Assembly (NCBI RefSeq): GCF_000317895.1
Contig: NC_019567.1
Coordinates: forward strand, 2,852,001 to 2,916,000
Length of the DNA stretch: 64,000 nt
Direction: 5' to 3'
Origin: Bdellovibrio bacteriovorus str. Tiberius
Lineage (GTDB): Bacteria; Bdellovibrionota; Bdellovibrionia; Bdellovibrionales; Bdellovibrionaceae
Program-made: the position numbers and the translations under genes
In this document: piece after piece, positions 11,158 to 56,334 of the stretch
Layout of the letters: each line of letters starts with the position of its first letter
How positions within the stretch are numbered: position 1 is the stretch's first letter
The notes under the pieces: generated by a model
Told to the model about the DNA's origin: nothing
Database searches by the model: none
Seen by the model: the letters and a program-made list of their open reading frames with translations, nothing else

Positions 11158-11973
11158 TTAACGACACTCGTAAATATGACCAAGCATTTTGGCGGCGCCA
11201 TTCACCGAGACCGGGAAGCCCGCGGGAAGTTCCACCAAGTCACTTCTGTTGAACTTGCGCAAAGAGAAAACCAGAGCCCCCTTTACACATAAAGTGTCAT
11301 CTTCCTTCGGCCAGACCGAACTTTGCATATGCAGCATTGTGGAAAGTTTTTGATCGGCATTTGCGCTCTGGACGTCAGGCAGGACAACTGTCGGCACCAC
11401 TACCCGGGAATAATCCTGATAGCGAACTTTGTACCCACCGTACTTGTCGTCCCATTCTCTGTAGGATTCAGTCCATTTTTCAATAATCAGATCCGAATTC
11501 ACGTTCGCAGCAAGCTCTTCTTCACTTTTTTGGACAAATGATTTTTCCTGATTCATCGGAACAACCTGCGGGATCTCCAGATCATTTAAGTGACCTGCAA
11601 TTTGTCGAACCACTCCGGCCGTACCCACCAGCATCGCAATTTCTCCAGGCCATGCGCCTTCTTTGCACATGTAATAGCTATAATGAGAACCATTGATGTT
11701 CAGTTCTTCAAGCTTGGGGATCGCAAAATTACTGATCCCGTCCCCGCCATAGGAAGATCCAATCAGTGCATAAACTGTCAGGTTGTCATTCCTTACCTCC
11801 ATCAGGCGGCCGTCAGCCTTTACCCACATTCGCTCGTCAGGAATTGTTTCGCTTTTAAAAGCCCGCATCTCAGTAATCACACACTCAAAATCAGCGTCAG
11901 CCTTTGCGATCTGCACGCTTGCAGTCACAGTCAGAGCAATCAAAATTTGGGACATCAGGATGATCGTTTTCAT
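11158..11973 (-). CDS. Secreted tail-collar-like domain protein (second of tandem pair)
   Basis: A protein of 271 residues from the ATG at 11973, which has GAAAGGGG upstream and begins a signal peptide (KTIILMSQILIALTVTASVQIAKA). Residues about 28-120 match the phage tail-collar pattern: an acidic E-x-RAF, then W-x-KADGRLM, LYALIGSSYGGD, FAIPKLEEL and SYYMCKEGAWPGE. It is a paralogue of the gene 29 bases upstream and probably shares its transcript from the sigma-54 promoter at 12778. A C-terminal extension of about 150 residues is unlike known proteins. It is likely an exported surface or fibre-associated component (inference). No phage genes surround it. Confidence 0.75.
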   Translation of the reverse strand: MKTIILMSQILIALTVTASVQIAKADADFECVITEMRAFKSETIPDERMWVKADGRLMEVRNDNLTVYALIGSSYGGDGISNFAIPKLEELNINGSHYSYYMCKEGAWPGEIAMLVGTAGVVRQIAGHLNDLEIPQVVPMNQEKSFVQKSEEELAANVNSDLIIEKWTESYREWDDKYGGYKVRYQDYSRVVVPTVVLPDVQSANADQKLSTMLHMQSSVWPKEDDTLCVKGALVFSLRKFNRSDLVELPAGFPVSVNGAAKMLGHIYECR

Positions 11974-12002
11974 AAAAACCCCTTTCAAATGGTGCCGCAG
12001 CC

Positions 12003-12731
12003 CTATAGACATTCATACATGTGAGCCGCTTCTTTGGTCACACCACCGAAAGAAATGCCTGCCATGCCTTCGACGATGATCTCTTTTGCGTTTTCCGGTT
12101 CGCGCATTTTTCCAAGCGCGAAGTACACGCCGCCTTTTTCACAGGCAATCTGGTAAGCAGGATAATTACCGTTCACTTCAAGTATGTTGTTCAGTTCAGT
12201 CCCGGTCGGAACATTCTTTAATACTGCCGGCAAAGTCACTGTGGGCATCAGAACGCTATTATCCTGCACCAGATCCCGATTCAGGATGCTCGCCAAAGCC
12301 GGATATCTTTCAATTGGCAGGGCTTCTTCACGAATCAACATCCTTTCGTTGTAGGAATCCAGGTTGAAGTTTCCAGCATACTGGCGCATGAAACCGGTGT
12401 TTGCAGAGTCTGTACCCCCACTCGGCCAGATGCCGCGCACACAGATATAATAGCTGTAACTTTGACCGTTCAACTGGATGTCTTCAATCTTAGGCAAAGC
12501 AAAGGTTTGTCTGTAATCACCGCCATATTGAACTCCCAACAAGGCGAACAGGGCCTGATTCATCGTGATTCGCATCAGTCGCCCGTCAGCTTTGGTCCAT
12601 GCGTTTTCATCCGGTGTTACGGCACTGTTAAAGGCACGCACTTCAGACATTCCGCATTCTAATTCACGGGCTTGGGCTTTAACGGTCAAAGACAGGGTCA
12701 GCAGGGCAAGAACGAGAGTGAACTTTTTCAT
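12003..12731 (-). CDS. Secreted tail-collar-like domain protein (first of tandem pair)
   Basis: A protein of 242 residues with a signal peptide (KKFTLVLALLTLSLTVKAQA). The domain at residues 24-115 is close to the phage tail-collar/microcystin-dependent-protein family: MSEVRAF, AWTKADGRLMRI, QALFALLGVQYGGD, TFALPKIED and the closing YYICVRGIWPSGG, which corresponds to the usual ALQGIFPS end. The C-terminal approximately 120 residues have Cys near the end (YECL). It is the first gene after the sigma-54 promoter, and the ribosome site AAAGAGG precedes the ATG. In phages this domain is part of tail fibres and baseplates; here it is exported as a small soluble protein, which is unusual. Confidence 0.78.
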   Translation of the reverse strand: MKKFTLVLALLTLSLTVKAQARELECGMSEVRAFNSAVTPDENAWTKADGRLMRITMNQALFALLGVQYGGDYRQTFALPKIEDIQLNGQSYSYYICVRGIWPSGGTDSANTGFMRQYAGNFNLDSYNERMLIREEALPIERYPALASILNRDLVQDNSVLMPTVTLPAVLKNVPTGTELNNILEVNGNYPAYQIACEKGGVYFALGKMREPENAKEIIVEGMAGISFGGVTKEAAHMYECL

Positions 12732-12777
12732 AACAACCTCTTTCAGGGGTGATTTGTATTCGATACAAACCTATGAA

Positions 12778-12792
12778 GCAACGGCGGTGCCA
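12778..12792 (-). promoter_or_regulatory. Sigma-54 (-24/-12) promoter of the tail-collar operon
   Basis: On the minus strand the sequence TGGCAC-CGCCG-TTGC gives the invariant GG and GC with 10 bases between them, matching the RpoN consensus. The predicted start is near 12766, about 35 bases before the ATG. It is identical over 18 bases to the promoter at 53802-53819. Confidence 0.85.
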
Positions 12793-12839
12793 GGGCTTTA
12801 TCCCTCTGAAACAGGCTTAATTTTGATCTGGGATGGGTG

Positions 12840-12857
12840 CTGCCGGAAAATCGGCAA
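12840..12857. promoter_or_regulatory. Candidate enhancer-binding-protein site 1 (CTGCCG-N6-CGGCAA)
   Basis: CTGCCG-GAAAAT-CGGCAA is centred about 82 bases upstream of the predicted sigma-54 start. The same palindrome occurs at the same distance in the 53.8-kb promoter. Confidence 0.65.
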
Positions 12858-12863
12858 GGCAGC

Positions 12864-12881
12864 CTGCCGGGGCCCCGGCAG
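12864..12881. promoter_or_regulatory. Candidate enhancer-binding-protein site 2 (CTGCCG-N6-CGGCAG)
   Basis: CTGCCG-GGGCCC-CGGCAG is an 18-bp perfect palindrome centred at about -106 and 24 bp from site 1. Its perfect symmetry would also allow a terminator hairpin, but there is no T-run on either side. Confidence 0.65.
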
Positions 12882-12902
12882 CTGCTGAAAATCCGCTAGG
12901 GA

Positions 12903-13388
12903 CTATTTCTTCTTGGTTTTTTGAACTTCAAAGATGTACGGATAGAAAACACTGACGACTTTCCCCGCTCTTTGGTTCTGAAGCTTTTCAAATTTGGCCT
13001 GACGAATGGATGTTTCGATGCAGGAATTCAAAGCTTCCGACGCCGGACGAATGCGGTTTTCCTTGAACTGAAATTTCGTCACCGTGCCCTCGGAATCAAA
13101 GCTGAAATCCACAACCACTTTACCCACCGGAATCGGCTGATTGGCCGCTTTGGCTTCAGCCATGGTCTGATCATGGCACTTTTTAAGTTCGCCGATCACA
13201 ACATCTTTATTCGTGTGATGAGCGGATTTCAGGTCCACCTTGGCTTCGCCCTGAGGCGCAGTCAAAGTGATATTTTCAGAAGGCATCTGCTCTGGAGTTT
13301 CAGAGCCGGGAACCGGCTCTACCGGAGGCGTCTGCGCCCCTGCGTGTAAGGCCATCAGGGCCAATGAGGTAACAATCAAAGATTTCAT
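12903..13388 (-). CDS. Exported AgmX/PglI C-terminal (TonB-like) domain protein
   Basis: A protein of 161 residues with a signal peptide (KSLIVTSLALMALHAGA). A Pro-rich linker follows at about 20-40. Residues about 65-155 carry the AgmX/PglI C-terminal pattern: an N-terminal helix with IGELKKCHDQ, the strand KVVVDFSFDSEGTVTKFQF, the Cys-containing helix LNSCIETSIRQAKF and a last strand YPYIFE. This fold resembles the TonB C-terminus and is common in myxobacteria and bdellovibrios. It is the last gene of the Bat operon, two bases after batD, so it probably works with the periplasmic Bat proteins. Confidence 0.8.
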   Translation of the reverse strand: MKSLIVTSLALMALHAGAQTPPVEPVPGSETPEQMPSENITLTAPQGEAKVDLKSAHHTNKDVVIGELKKCHDQTMAEAKAANQPIPVGKVVVDFSFDSEGTVTKFQFKENRIRPASEALNSCIETSIRQAKFEKLQNQRAGKVVSVFYPYIFEVQKTKKK

Positions 13389-52200: not shown

Positions 52201-52286
52201 AGACACCTCCTGGATGGCTTACATTAAACAATAAAAGCCCTAGCTGCGCTATGAACCTTGGCAACAATCATGATCCGATCACAAAT

Positions 52287-53594
52287 CTAAAACAACCCTA
52301 GCCTGAAGCCCGTCCACACAGACCAGTTGTCATCCAGATAGACGTTCCCCGCCTTCCAGCCCGGAGTTTTAGTCTCATAACCCACATAATACTCAAAGGC
52401 GTCAGAGGTTCTTAATGCGACCTCGATATTACCATCCAGCAGCAATTCAGATTCTTCAGCATCATAGCGCTGATCCTTTGGCTGCATCCAGGCGGTCGTG
52501 CCAAGGGTGACAAAAAGGTGATGGCTGATTTCAGCGTCGATCCACTGCAAACTCATGCCCGGGAAGTATCTCTTCGGAGTCATCCCGTTATGCAACGTCA
52601 CGAGGAACTTGTGCTTGTGCATTTCCAGGAACACGTTCGCATCCACAGTCCCGCCAAAGGACGTCAGATAATGGCTGAATTTGAAGTTCCAGCGCCCCCA
52701 GCCTGCTTTAAAATCAGTGAAGCCAAACAAGAACGGATCCACGAAATTTAAATAAGACAGACTGGCCTGGAGCTTCAGGAAGTTCTGCTCGTCACTGGTC
52801 AGATCCAAGTATTTAATGTAGCGCTTAATTCCCACTCCCGACGGATGGGTGCCGCGGTCGGTATACGGTTCATCGGGGCGGAACAAATCATAAACCCACG
52901 CGGTACAATCAAGGCCCGTGAAGTCCCGGCGCTTCATGTCTGCGCCCTCTTCCGCCATTTCTTCATCAGTCGTTTTATCCGCATCCGTCGATGCACACTG
53001 AAGCATGTAAGAAGTTACGTTCATGTTGTTAAACCAAAGCAGGAACGTGTCCCGCGAGCGGGCATCACGATAGAAGTGGCTTTTTTCAACCAGCATGTTC
53101 TGATAAATCTGGGCCTCCATGCCCGCAGAACTTAAGCGCACCATTTCAGCCGGATGTTCGGCCTTCAATTTAATCAGGTCTGAATCATTCACATGATCCA
53201 CCGCGATCACACCCTGCCCCCAGGGAAAGGTGTTCATTGAATTGAAGCTTCCGATTTCACGGCGGGTCATGACGGCCCGATGCCATTCTTCATGCCCCCA
53301 TCCGGCACCCACCGGGACTGTGGATGTAAGATAATCAAAACCGCCAATCAAAAGCCAGCGCCACCAACCGACACTTTCTTTTGAATCTCCGCCAATTCCC
53401 CGGTGCATGGTTTGCAGAAAGCCGGTTGAAACCGCCGAGGACTGGCGCATGCTGAAATAGTCCGGGCCATGAGATGTCGTGTTGTTAAAAGGGTATTCAT
53501 AAACCGGCAGATCCAACCAAACGCCGGGATTGGCTAAAGCCTGACTGCCCGCAAATATTGAAATCACCACCATCAATGGCTTAAGCATTTTCAT
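52287..53594 (-). CDS. Exported protein, possibly outer-membrane associated
   Basis: A protein of 435 residues from the ATG at 53594 with GGAAGGG upstream. The signal peptide is KMLKPLMVVISIFAGSQALA. A conserved-looking N-terminal segment VWLDLPVYEYPFNN precedes GWGHEEWHRAVMTRREIG, an HE-x-x-H-like string (GHEEWH) that may bind a metal. The C-terminal half alternates aromatic residues (WGRWNFKFSHYL, FEYYVGYETKTPGW) like an outer-membrane barrel and ends with FRLGLF, an aromatic terminal residue typical for barrel proteins. Function unknown. Confidence 0.75.
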   Translation of the reverse strand: MKMLKPLMVVISIFAGSQALANPGVWLDLPVYEYPFNNTTSHGPDYFSMRQSSAVSTGFLQTMHRGIGGDSKESVGWWRWLLIGGFDYLTSTVPVGAGWGHEEWHRAVMTRREIGSFNSMNTFPWGQGVIAVDHVNDSDLIKLKAEHPAEMVRLSSAGMEAQIYQNMLVEKSHFYRDARSRDTFLLWFNNMNVTSYMLQCASTDADKTTDEEMAEEGADMKRRDFTGLDCTAWVYDLFRPDEPYTDRGTHPSGVGIKRYIKYLDLTSDEQNFLKLQASLSYLNFVDPFLFGFTDFKAGWGRWNFKFSHYLTSFGGTVDANVFLEMHKHKFLVTLHNGMTPKRYFPGMSLQWIDAEISHHLFVTLGTTAWMQPKDQRYDAEESELLLDGNIEVALRTSDAFEYYVGYETKTPGWKAGNVYLDDNWSVWTGFRLGLF

Positions 53595-53696
53595 ACAAAC
53601 CCTTCCACACATAAAAACCAAATCAACTTTAGTGAAAATCGTACGCAAGTTAGATACTGGACGCAAACATTAACGCGGTTTTAAATCCCTTCGGAG

Positions 53697-53714
53697 CTGT
53701 TGGATTCCCGGCAA
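53697..53714. promoter_or_regulatory. Degenerate enhancer site (CTGTTG-N6-CGGCAA)
   Basis: It shares 15 of 18 positions with the pattern CTGCCG-N6-CGGCAG if the N6 is not counted against it, and lies 42 bp (four turns) upstream of the clear site. It is centred at about -123. Confidence 0.4.
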
Positions 53715-53738
53715 GCGCCGAAGGGCCGTCACGGACCT

Positions 53739-53756
53739 CTGCCGGATCTTCGGCAG
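53739..53756. promoter_or_regulatory. Candidate enhancer-binding-protein site (CTGCCG-N6-CGGCAG)
   Basis: CTGCCG-GATCTT-CGGCAG lies within a longer perfect 9-bp inverted repeat (CCTCTGCCG/CGGCAGAGG). It is centred at about -82 from the predicted sigma-54 start, the same as at 12.8 kb. Confidence 0.7.
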
Positions 53757-53802
53757 AGGTTTTCCCAACTGCCATCTGTTGCTTATGACGCCCGCCCAAC
53801 GC

Positions 53803-53817
53803 TGGCACCGCCGTTGC
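53803..53817 (+). promoter_or_regulatory. Sigma-54 (-24/-12) promoter
   Basis: TGGCAC-CGCCG-TTGC has the invariant GG-N10-GC spacing. The transcription start is expected near 53829, 35 bases before the ATG at 53864. CTGGCACCGCCGTTGCTT is identical to the other sigma-54 promoter in this window. Confidence 0.88.
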
Positions 53818-53863
53818 TTTTCCAGAGTGGCATCAGATGACTGATAACCAAAAAGGAGAAACC

Positions 53864-54538
53864 ATGAAAGCACTTATCACAACACTCTTAATCGCCCTTT
53901 CTGCCACGGCCGCCAACGCTGCTGAACCAAAGCCTTATGGCATCGACATCACCAACAAGGACTCTGTCGGCGCGTCGGTCTGGATCACAGTTTACAACTT
54001 CGTCGGGGACATCGGCGACAATGCCTGCCTGCAACCGGGGCAAACCATTTCCTTCCACGACTATATGACCGGTCCGGCTTACACCGTGCGTGCGGAAGTG
54101 AAACAAAACCGCGATTGTTCCGGCGCCACTTACAGTGACCTTAGCACCGTGGTTGGCGGCAACGACAAGGTGGAAATGTCCCGAAGCGCAACTGGCACTT
54201 TGTGGCTTGAAAACAAGGGCGACGGCACGGACAAGGACGCCAATCCTTTGACGACGGTTTCCATGCGCAACAACGACACCTCCGGTCACTCGGCTTGGGT
54301 CACTATTTACAATACCGTGGGGCGTATCGGTGACTCTGGTTGCGTAAGACCGGGGAACAAGAAGATGTGGAAAAACTATGCGCCGCCATTCAAATACAAT
54401 GTCCGTGTGGAAGTGAAACAAAACGAGGACTGCAGCGGCGGCAACCTTGAAGACACCGACATGTCTGTGCCTTCCCAAAGCGGAGTCGAACTGACGGTCG
54501 ATGGATCCGGCTACTTCCACTTAAATCAGAAAAAATAA
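53864..54538 (+). CDS. Secreted two-repeat protein under sigma-54 control
   Basis: A protein of 224 residues from the ATG at 53864 (AAAGGAGAA upstream). Signal peptide KALITTLLIALSATAANA. The mature protein has two homologous units of about 90 residues: the first contains SVWITVYNFVGDIGDNACLQPG and EVKQNRDCSG, the second SAWVTIYNTVGRIGDSGCVRPG and EVKQNEDCSG. Each unit has two Cys. Beta-sandwich folding is likely. I recognise no family. The sigma-54 promoter and the shared enhancer sites put it in the same regulon as the tail-collar proteins. Confidence 0.82.
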   Translation: MKALITTLLIALSATAANAAEPKPYGIDITNKDSVGASVWITVYNFVGDIGDNACLQPGQTISFHDYMTGPAYTVRAEVKQNRDCSGATYSDLSTVVGGNDKVEMSRSATGTLWLENKGDGTDKDANPLTTVSMRNNDTSGHSAWVTIYNTVGRIGDSGCVRPGNKKMWKNYAPPFKYNVRVEVKQNEDCSGGNLEDTDMSVPSQSGVELTVDGSGYFHLNQKK

Positions 54539-55309: not shown

Positions 55310-55401
55310 AAGGCCAGTCTGATCCTGACTGGTTTGGCAGCGCAAATTCCCAGTGATACTTTGAAGCCATCAGCTCCACACATTCGTACAAGGAGGTGGT
55401 T

Positions 55402-56334
55402 ATGCGTTTCAAAATAATTTCACTTTTTGCGGCGTTGTTGTTGTCTTCATTCTCGGCCCAGGGGTACGTGCCCAACTCACCCATCACGACAAATGATCCT
55501 TCATTCGGCATGACGGGAAAATTCAATCCCGCCGGGTGGTCCGATTGGATCACCCTCGGTGGCATTGGCACTTCCGATCCGGCCAGTTGCTCCATGTCGG
55601 GTTTCCGTAACATCGTGTTTGTAAAAGGCACCGACAATGCTCTGTGGTCGCGCTATTGGAATGGTGCCGGATGGTCAGAATGGTTTTCGTTGGGAGGTGT
55701 GCTGACATCTGCTCCGGCGGCGGCCTGCCAAGGGGAACAGATCTATGTCTTTGCCCGAGGCACTGACAATGCACTTTGGGCCCGATACTGGTGGGGCACT
55801 CAGTGGAGTGAATGGATCAGTATCGGCGGTGTGCTGACTTCCGGTCCCGCAGTGACTTCATGGGAATTTGGCCGAGTGGATGTCTTTGTGCGCGGTACGG
55901 ACAATGCCCTCTGGCACAAGTGGTTCGCCAGCGGTGCTTGGTCTGAATGGGAATCCCTGGGCGGCGTTCTGACTTCGGATCCAGCGGCAGCCTCGTGTTC
56001 TGCAGGCAGAATTGACGTCTTTGTTCGCGGTACTGACAACGCCCTCTGGCACAAGTGGTTTGCGGGCGGCTGGTCCGGCTGGGAATCACTGGGTGGCGTT
56101 CTGACTTCAGATCCCGACGTCGCTTCATGGGGCTCAGGCCGATTGGATGTGTTTGTTCGTGGAACTGACAACGCTCTTTGGCACCTGTGGTGGGATGGCA
56201 AATGGAGCTCTTGGGAATCTTTGGGAGGCATTTTAACCTCCGGCCCCGGAGCCTCGGCACTGGCACCGGGATATTTGGTCATCTATGTGAAAGGCACTGA
56301 CCAGGCGATCTGGTTTAAGGTGTTTACACCGTAA
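55402..56334 (+). CDS. Secreted six-blade PLL-like beta-propeller lectin
   Basis: A protein of 310 residues from the ATG at 55402 (AAGGAGGT upstream). Signal peptide RFKIISLFAALLLSSFSAQG. The rest consists of six repeats of about 45 residues, each of the form VFVRGTDNALWHKWF followed by WSEWESLGGVLTSDP. This pattern matches PLL-like lectins (tandem-repeat propellers that bind fucose or related sugars). It is probably a secreted sugar-binding protein, perhaps for prey recognition. Repeats 3 to 5 are nearly identical at DNA level, showing recent duplication. Confidence 0.88.
   Translation: MRFKIISLFAALLLSSFSAQGYVPNSPITTNDPSFGMTGKFNPAGWSDWITLGGIGTSDPASCSMSGFRNIVFVKGTDNALWSRYWNGAGWSEWFSLGGVLTSAPAAACQGEQIYVFARGTDNALWARYWWGTQWSEWISIGGVLTSGPAVTSWEFGRVDVFVRGTDNALWHKWFASGAWSEWESLGGVLTSDPAAASCSAGRIDVFVRGTDNALWHKWFAGGWSGWESLGGVLTSDPDVASWGSGRLDVFVRGTDNALWHLWWDGKWSSWESLGGILTSGPGASALAPGYLVIYVKGTDQAIWFKVFTP

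Follow-up and report, generated by a model that had tools for sequence, protein, structure and literature searches.

A putative sigma-54 regulon marked by dyad arrays, and its candidate regulator, in Bdellovibrio bacteriovorus Tiberius

Dyad arrays in front of sigma-54 promoters

The window analysed here, the whole stretch of 64,000 nucleotides from base 2852001 to 2916000 of the single-contig, 3,988,594-bp genome of Bdellovibrio bacteriovorus Tiberius (G000), contains two loci at which genes for secreted proteins are preceded by a putative sigma-54 promoter and, further upstream, by an array of CTGCCG-N6-CGGCAG dyads (Table 1). Dyad positions are given as the start relative to the first G of the promoter GG, and dyad quality as the number of matches, out of 12, to CTGCCG-N6-CGGCAG. 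At the first locus (53697-54538), a preliminary description had reported a promoter, a perfect palindrome and a degenerate second copy; this observation is confirmed, with the two dyads at 53697 and 53739 starting 42 bp apart as described. A third, degenerate dyad between them had been missed; it is weak on its own (3.0 bits), and its position agrees with the 18/24 layout described below.

The sigma-54 context TGGCAC-N5-TTGCW is matched exactly at 53803 and, on the minus strand, at 12792, where the second locus (11158-12899, minus strand) shares an identical 16-mer core, TGGCACCGCCGTTGCT (12792-12777), at a distance of 41 kb from the first promoter. The earlier claim that promoter, site and spacing recur together at this second locus holds for the promoter and for the array but not for the perfect palindrome: the copy at the distance matching 53739 is an 11/12 dyad, and the perfect copy lies 24 bp further up. 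A promoter-plus-triad model, whose training sequences all came from outside the window, scored the promoters at 53804 and 12791 at 64.0 and 80.2, respectively, against a best null score of 6.6 among 20 Markov-resampled 64-kb windows read on both strands.

Table 1. Positions of the features discussed (window coordinates unless a locus or contig is named)
Feature	Position	Strand	Remarks
Locus 1, distal dyad CTGTTG-GATTCC-CGGCAA (CTGTTGGATTCCCGGCAA)	53697..53714	+	start -107; 9/12
Locus 1, middle dyad GCGCCG-AAGGGC-CGTCAC (GCGCCGAAGGGCCGTCAC)	53715..53732	+	start -89; 8/12; degenerate; fills gap between outer dyads
Locus 1, proximal dyad CTGCCG-GATCTT-CGGCAG (CTGCCGGATCTTCGGCAG)	53739..53756	+	start -65; 12/12
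Locus 1, spacer from array to promoter	53757..53801	+	in other members, A/T-rich IHF-like element here
Locus 1, putative sigma-54 promoter CTGGCACCGCCGTTGCTT	53802..53819	+	GG at 53804-53805
Locus 1, target gene	53864..54538	+	secreted protein, two related repeats, 224 residues; no Pfam family
Locus 2, distal dyad CTAGCG-GATTTT-CAGCAG	12882..12899	-	start -108; 9/12
Locus 2, middle dyad CTGCCG-GGGCCC-CGGCAG	12864..12881	-	start -90; 12/12
Locus 2, proximal dyad TTGCCG-ATTTTC-CGGCAG	12840..12857	-	start -66; 11/12
Locus 2, putative sigma-54 promoter CTGGCACCGCCGTTGCTT	12776..12793	-	identical to promoter at 53802
Locus 2, target gene	12003..12731	-	secreted protein, phage tail collar domain (Pfam PF07484)
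Locus 2, second gene of operon	11158..12012	-	collar-domain paralogue
Candidate regulator gene	G000:C1:326332-327714		461 residues; receiver-AAA+-Fis; 2.5 Mb from window
Stretch missing in HD100	L086:6371-9726
Stretch missing in HD100	L007:5770-6572
Stretch missing in HD100	L006:3962-6256
Stretch missing in HD100	window 11163-12904
Stretch missing in HD100	window 52209-54527
Stretch missing in HD100	L068:7671-9579

The exact palindrome occurs five times, at four loci, in the 3.99 Mb Tiberius genome (the reversed control not once), and all five copies lie upstream of a GG-N10-GC promoter, which bears out the expected enrichment before sigma-54 promoters. At all four loci a distance of 42 bp separates the outer dyads, which stand at about -108 and -66 relative to the first G, and a looser search added a fifth Tiberius promoter, at 2387639. 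Not every sigma-54 promoter is marked by the array: only two of the 12 exact TGGCAC-N5-TTGCW sites in Tiberius have one, both in the window. The ten other sites (L008-L015, L018, L019), several of which stand just before signal-peptide or flagellar-looking genes, have no arrays of this kind and are presumably served by other activators.

Across 66 genomes of the family Bdellovibrionaceae, 24 of them within the genus, site plus promoter was matched 20 times in nine genomes, compared with two control matches, and all 20 matches fell in one genus. Combined with relaxed searches and fetched stretches, this search yielded a collection of 31 array promoters in 11 Bdellovibrio genomes; the full model was applied to the window and the fetched stretches, and weaker members elsewhere were possibly missed. 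By the rule of the search all 31 have GG-N10-GC, most with TGGCA; three dyads of at least 9/12 precede 20 of them and two dyads the remainder, and the 82 sites give the consensus CTGCCGRRNNYYCGGCAG. Two layouts are found: a main one with a spacing of 18 then 24 (starts at about -108, -89 and -65), and a mirror one with 23 then 17 (starts at about -102, -79 and -62). A single array in G015 is flanked by two divergent sigma-54 promoters, each of which therefore reads it in the opposite orientation.

Some arrays stand apart from a complete promoter. In G006 (L158:7180-7400; G006:C1 at about 2343181) an intact triple array lies before a secreted-family gene whose promoter and start have apparently been deleted, which appears to be a target decaying in a genome that retains the regulator introduced below. 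Two-dyad arrays in G021 and G014 (L167:6385-6425 and L164:6875-6910) have no recognised GG-N10-GC promoter at the usual distance, and may be remnants or belong to a different promoter arrangement.

A candidate kinase/regulator pair and its distribution

Tiberius has 13 strong sigma-54 activator genes. The preliminary description had postulated one NtrC-type activator, and adjacency to targets together with co-distribution now points to a specific candidate, whose receiver, sigma-54 interaction AAA+ and Fis-type helix-turn-helix domains (PF00072, PF00158 and PF02954) all score above cut-off, and which has GAFTGA at residue 219, a Walker A motif at 172 and a Walker B region at 239. The gene of a membrane histidine kinase precedes that of the regulator. 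The regulator orthologue is located directly upstream of an array-controlled methyltransferase gene in two relatives (G009 and G021), and about 3.4 kb from an array-controlled gene in G014. As for the kinase itself (L086:6525-8333), its last 115 residues or so are receiver-like, without a match to any Pfam receiver model; those orthologues that were inspected range from 592 to 727 residues in length.

Orthologues of the regulator occur in 11 of the 66 genomes, exactly those with array-plus-promoter units, and are absent from the other 13 members of the genus. All nine genomes positive for the site-plus-promoter pattern are among these carriers, and in the other two, G005 and G008, arrays precede the GG-N10-GC promoter of a propeller lipoprotein gene. 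Among the 13 genus members without the regulator, a recognisable array is found in HD100 (G003) only, where promoter and gene are gone; G011 gave two array matches, and the one that was inspected (G011:C16) resembles repetitive coding sequence. The co-occurrence of regulator and array within the genus has a Fisher p of 3-4e-5, uncorrected for phylogeny. A search for the regulator in named genomes returned only one unrelated locus.

Two independent contrasts, HD100 and G017, carry most weight. Around the regulator locus and each of the five target loci, HD100, which is the type strain and the standard strain of laboratory work, still has flanking sequence that can be aligned (mostly at 82-95% nucleotide identity), but it has neither the kinase/regulator pair nor the genes at any of the five. 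The array is retained at its methyltransferase locus, where promoter and gene are absent, and its beta-helix locus still shows what looks like a decayed array together with the gene's first bases; these remnants suggest loss of the system from HD100 rather than its never having been there. Of 3738 Tiberius genes, 535 (or 312 by manual check) have no HD100 counterpart (PMC3539863), and six independent absences would accordingly have a probability of about 9e-6 (from 535) or 3e-7 (from 312), figures that are optimistic because accessory genes are lost more readily. G017 likewise lacks both the pair and the array-linked genes that are present in its close relative G015.

Other activators were tried as candidates and rejected. 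Two flank the locus at 1596489: the 1590368 type is widespread in the genus and occurs in HD100, which also has a close counterpart of the 1600949 type. The activator at 2210059 (Tiberius 2209597-2211072), also absent from HD100, has a distribution that does not match the arrays: at full length it is missing from array-bearing G009, G018 (a 66% fragment only) and G021, and is present in array-less G011, G012, G016, G017 and G022. Its orthologue is broken in G006 (G006:C1:1762639-1763682), where the match spans residues 146-493 only with a stop inside, and none was seen in HD100.

Taken together, these observations make it probable that an activator acts on the sigma-54 promoter from this upstream array, and that such arrays serve a dispersed regulon run by the kinase/regulator pair. 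Several points weigh against this proposal. The 11 carriers are related, so that their co-distribution does not represent 11 independent events; another co-distributed regulator is conceivable, as only some of the Tiberius activators were profiled gene by gene; and the Fis-type match of the candidate is modest (E 5e-5). The preliminary description had proposed to look for an NtrC-family gene with its own such site, but the candidate activator operon carries no array, and autoregulation gives the link no support. Finally, the IHF-like A/T-rich element is weak in the main class of promoters (mean best match 6.6/9, against 6.3 in shuffled sequence) and convincing in the mirror class only (7.7, against 6.6).

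The arrays might instead be bound by a different protein, such as a repressor or some other one of the 13 sigma-54 activators, with the kinase/regulator pair merely co-inherited. Co-distribution inside a clade can indeed reflect common descent, and the 1596489 locus has its two flanking activators; yet close counterparts of both exist in HD100, where the regulon is missing, the 2210059 activator does not follow the arrays, the candidate adjoins a target in two relatives, and the joint absence extends over six unlinked loci in HD100 and is seen again in G017, so that we regard a different binder as unlikely. It is far less likely still that the palindromes are intrinsic terminators of upstream genes (stem CCTCTGCCG/CGGCAGAGG, then TTTT). 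The 53739 copy does form a good hairpin with TTTT behind it, and the end of a gene precedes the 12864 array, but just upstream of 53697 there is no end of a plus-strand gene, the neighbour being divergent; the G015 array lies between divergent promoters; and most copies lack T runs and stand in twos or threes at fixed promoter distances. Mere chance could draw on the 56 dyad matches that the window contains when three mismatches are allowed, but as an account of the likeness of the two window promoters it is refuted by the empty exact-palindrome control, by window scores far above the null and by recurrence in 11 genomes.

Targets and proposed mechanism

The preliminary description had envisaged a regulon of exported proteins, and judging by signal peptides (assessed by eye, with no predictor) the putative regulon is mostly, not wholly, of that kind. 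Its families comprise the repeat-type secreted proteins of the window (53864 family), found under array promoters in five genomes; the collar-domain secreted proteins of window 12003 and 11158, both of whose genes are absent from HD100; secreted proteins to which no Pfam family matched (L007, L074, L165, L166); a secreted, beta-helix-like protein, whose gene in Tiberius has that of an S58 peptidase after it; propeller lipoproteins with seven blades; and mainly helical secreted proteins. The exception is a conserved class-I methyltransferase, cytoplasmic and without a signal peptide, whose gene is directly followed in Tiberius by that of a propeller lipoprotein.

The first window target likely starts at 53864, which is preceded by AAGGAG (an ATG at 53837 is less likely). 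Its product is predicted to fold as two beta-sandwich domains (predicted local distance difference test, pLDDT, 72), and a fold search with it gave generic beta-sandwich matches only, at low template-modelling (TM) scores, and no specific fold. The divergent neighbour (52287-53666, minus strand) encodes a secreted-looking protein of 459 residues with no Pfam family; no sigma-54 promoter was seen ahead of its gene, and HD100 lacks it as well, having the gene of another secreted protein at that place. Close downstream, 55396-56331 (plus strand) encodes a protein of DUF346 repeats (five stretches), which we take to be PLL-type lectin propellers; this gene is kept in HD100 and has no array.

From adjacency and co-distribution we infer that the regulator binds the dyads as an oligomer, and the following mechanism may be envisaged. 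On a signal, the membrane histidine kinase would phosphorylate the NtrC-family response regulator, dimers of which would bind up to three dyads of the consensus type, three dimers matching one AAA+ hexamer. The hexamer would then contact sigma-54 polymerase about 65 bp downstream, possibly aided by an IHF-type bend, and open the promoter through ATP hydrolysis, control presumably being positive. Its targets would form a dispersed regulon of secreted protein and lipoprotein families together with the cytoplasmic methyltransferase; regulator, arrays and targets are retained or missing jointly. The earlier interpretation seems largely right, and control by RpoN is supported as far as sequence can tell; that such a regulon was not known to have been described agrees with our search of the open-access literature, which found no description of it.

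A bacterial predator would then have a testable, signal-controlled regulon of mostly exported proteins, for which a candidate activator can be named, the DNA site defined and the targets listed, and HD100, which apparently lacks the whole system, would offer a natural null background for its reconstitution. A dispersed regulon that is absent as a whole, and of which array remnants persist, provides what looks like a clear example of regulon-level gene loss. More tentatively, and with rather less confidence than even, we suggest that the system is one optional envelope or secretion programme, an evolutionary unit although scattered, in which loss of the pair goes with loss of the targets everywhere, to which work on HD100 has been blind, and which is possibly tied to prey range or prey-independent growth.

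Relation to known sigma-54 regulators

A close parallel in design is the PrsK/PrsR system, for which a sigma-54 cis-regulatory site of PEP-CTERM genes has been described (Haft et al. 2006, PMC1569441). As in that system, the proteins concerned are dispersed and mostly exported, their sigma-54 promoters have a motif some tens of bases upstream, a kinase and a receiver-AAA+-Fis regulator are co-distributed with them, and the phylogenetic logic of discovery is the same. The motifs differ, however, the PrsK/PrsR one being a 17-mer ending in TTTACA and that of Bdellovibrio an array of CTGCCG-N6-CGGCAG dyads; the Bdellovibrio regulator reaches 315.4 bits where the NCBIfam model TIGR02915 has a cut-off of 502.6, and the kinase 80 against 300. 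No PEP-CTERM domain was matched in the targets scanned.

Three enhancer sites upstream of a single sigma-54 promoter, at norVW, scaffold the hexamer of NorR (PMC2941729). Three upstream sites are likewise found at 20 of the 31 Bdellovibrio promoters, and triple-dyad arrays in two mirror layouts fit the idea of three dimers per hexamer for sigma-54 activators. NorR has a GAF domain, whereas the Bdellovibrio regulator has a receiver, and its 278 bits fall short of the NorR cut-off, 476. The site sequence also differs, that of NorR being GT-N7-AC, and the Bdellovibrio arrays occur in their two layouts at many loci.

With NtrC (NR-I) the candidate shares the receiver-AAA+-Fis architecture, and this is its best NCBIfam model by score, although at 330.5 bits it falls below the cut-off of 558.6 for NtrC proper (TIGR01818). 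NtrC sites read TGCACY-N5-GGTGCA, and NtrC targets concern nitrogen. The putative Bdellovibrio regulon would be a further NtrC-type sigma-54 regulon, a class already known, and it has a specific activator candidate, an unusually regular triple-dyad architecture and a coordinated absence from HD100.
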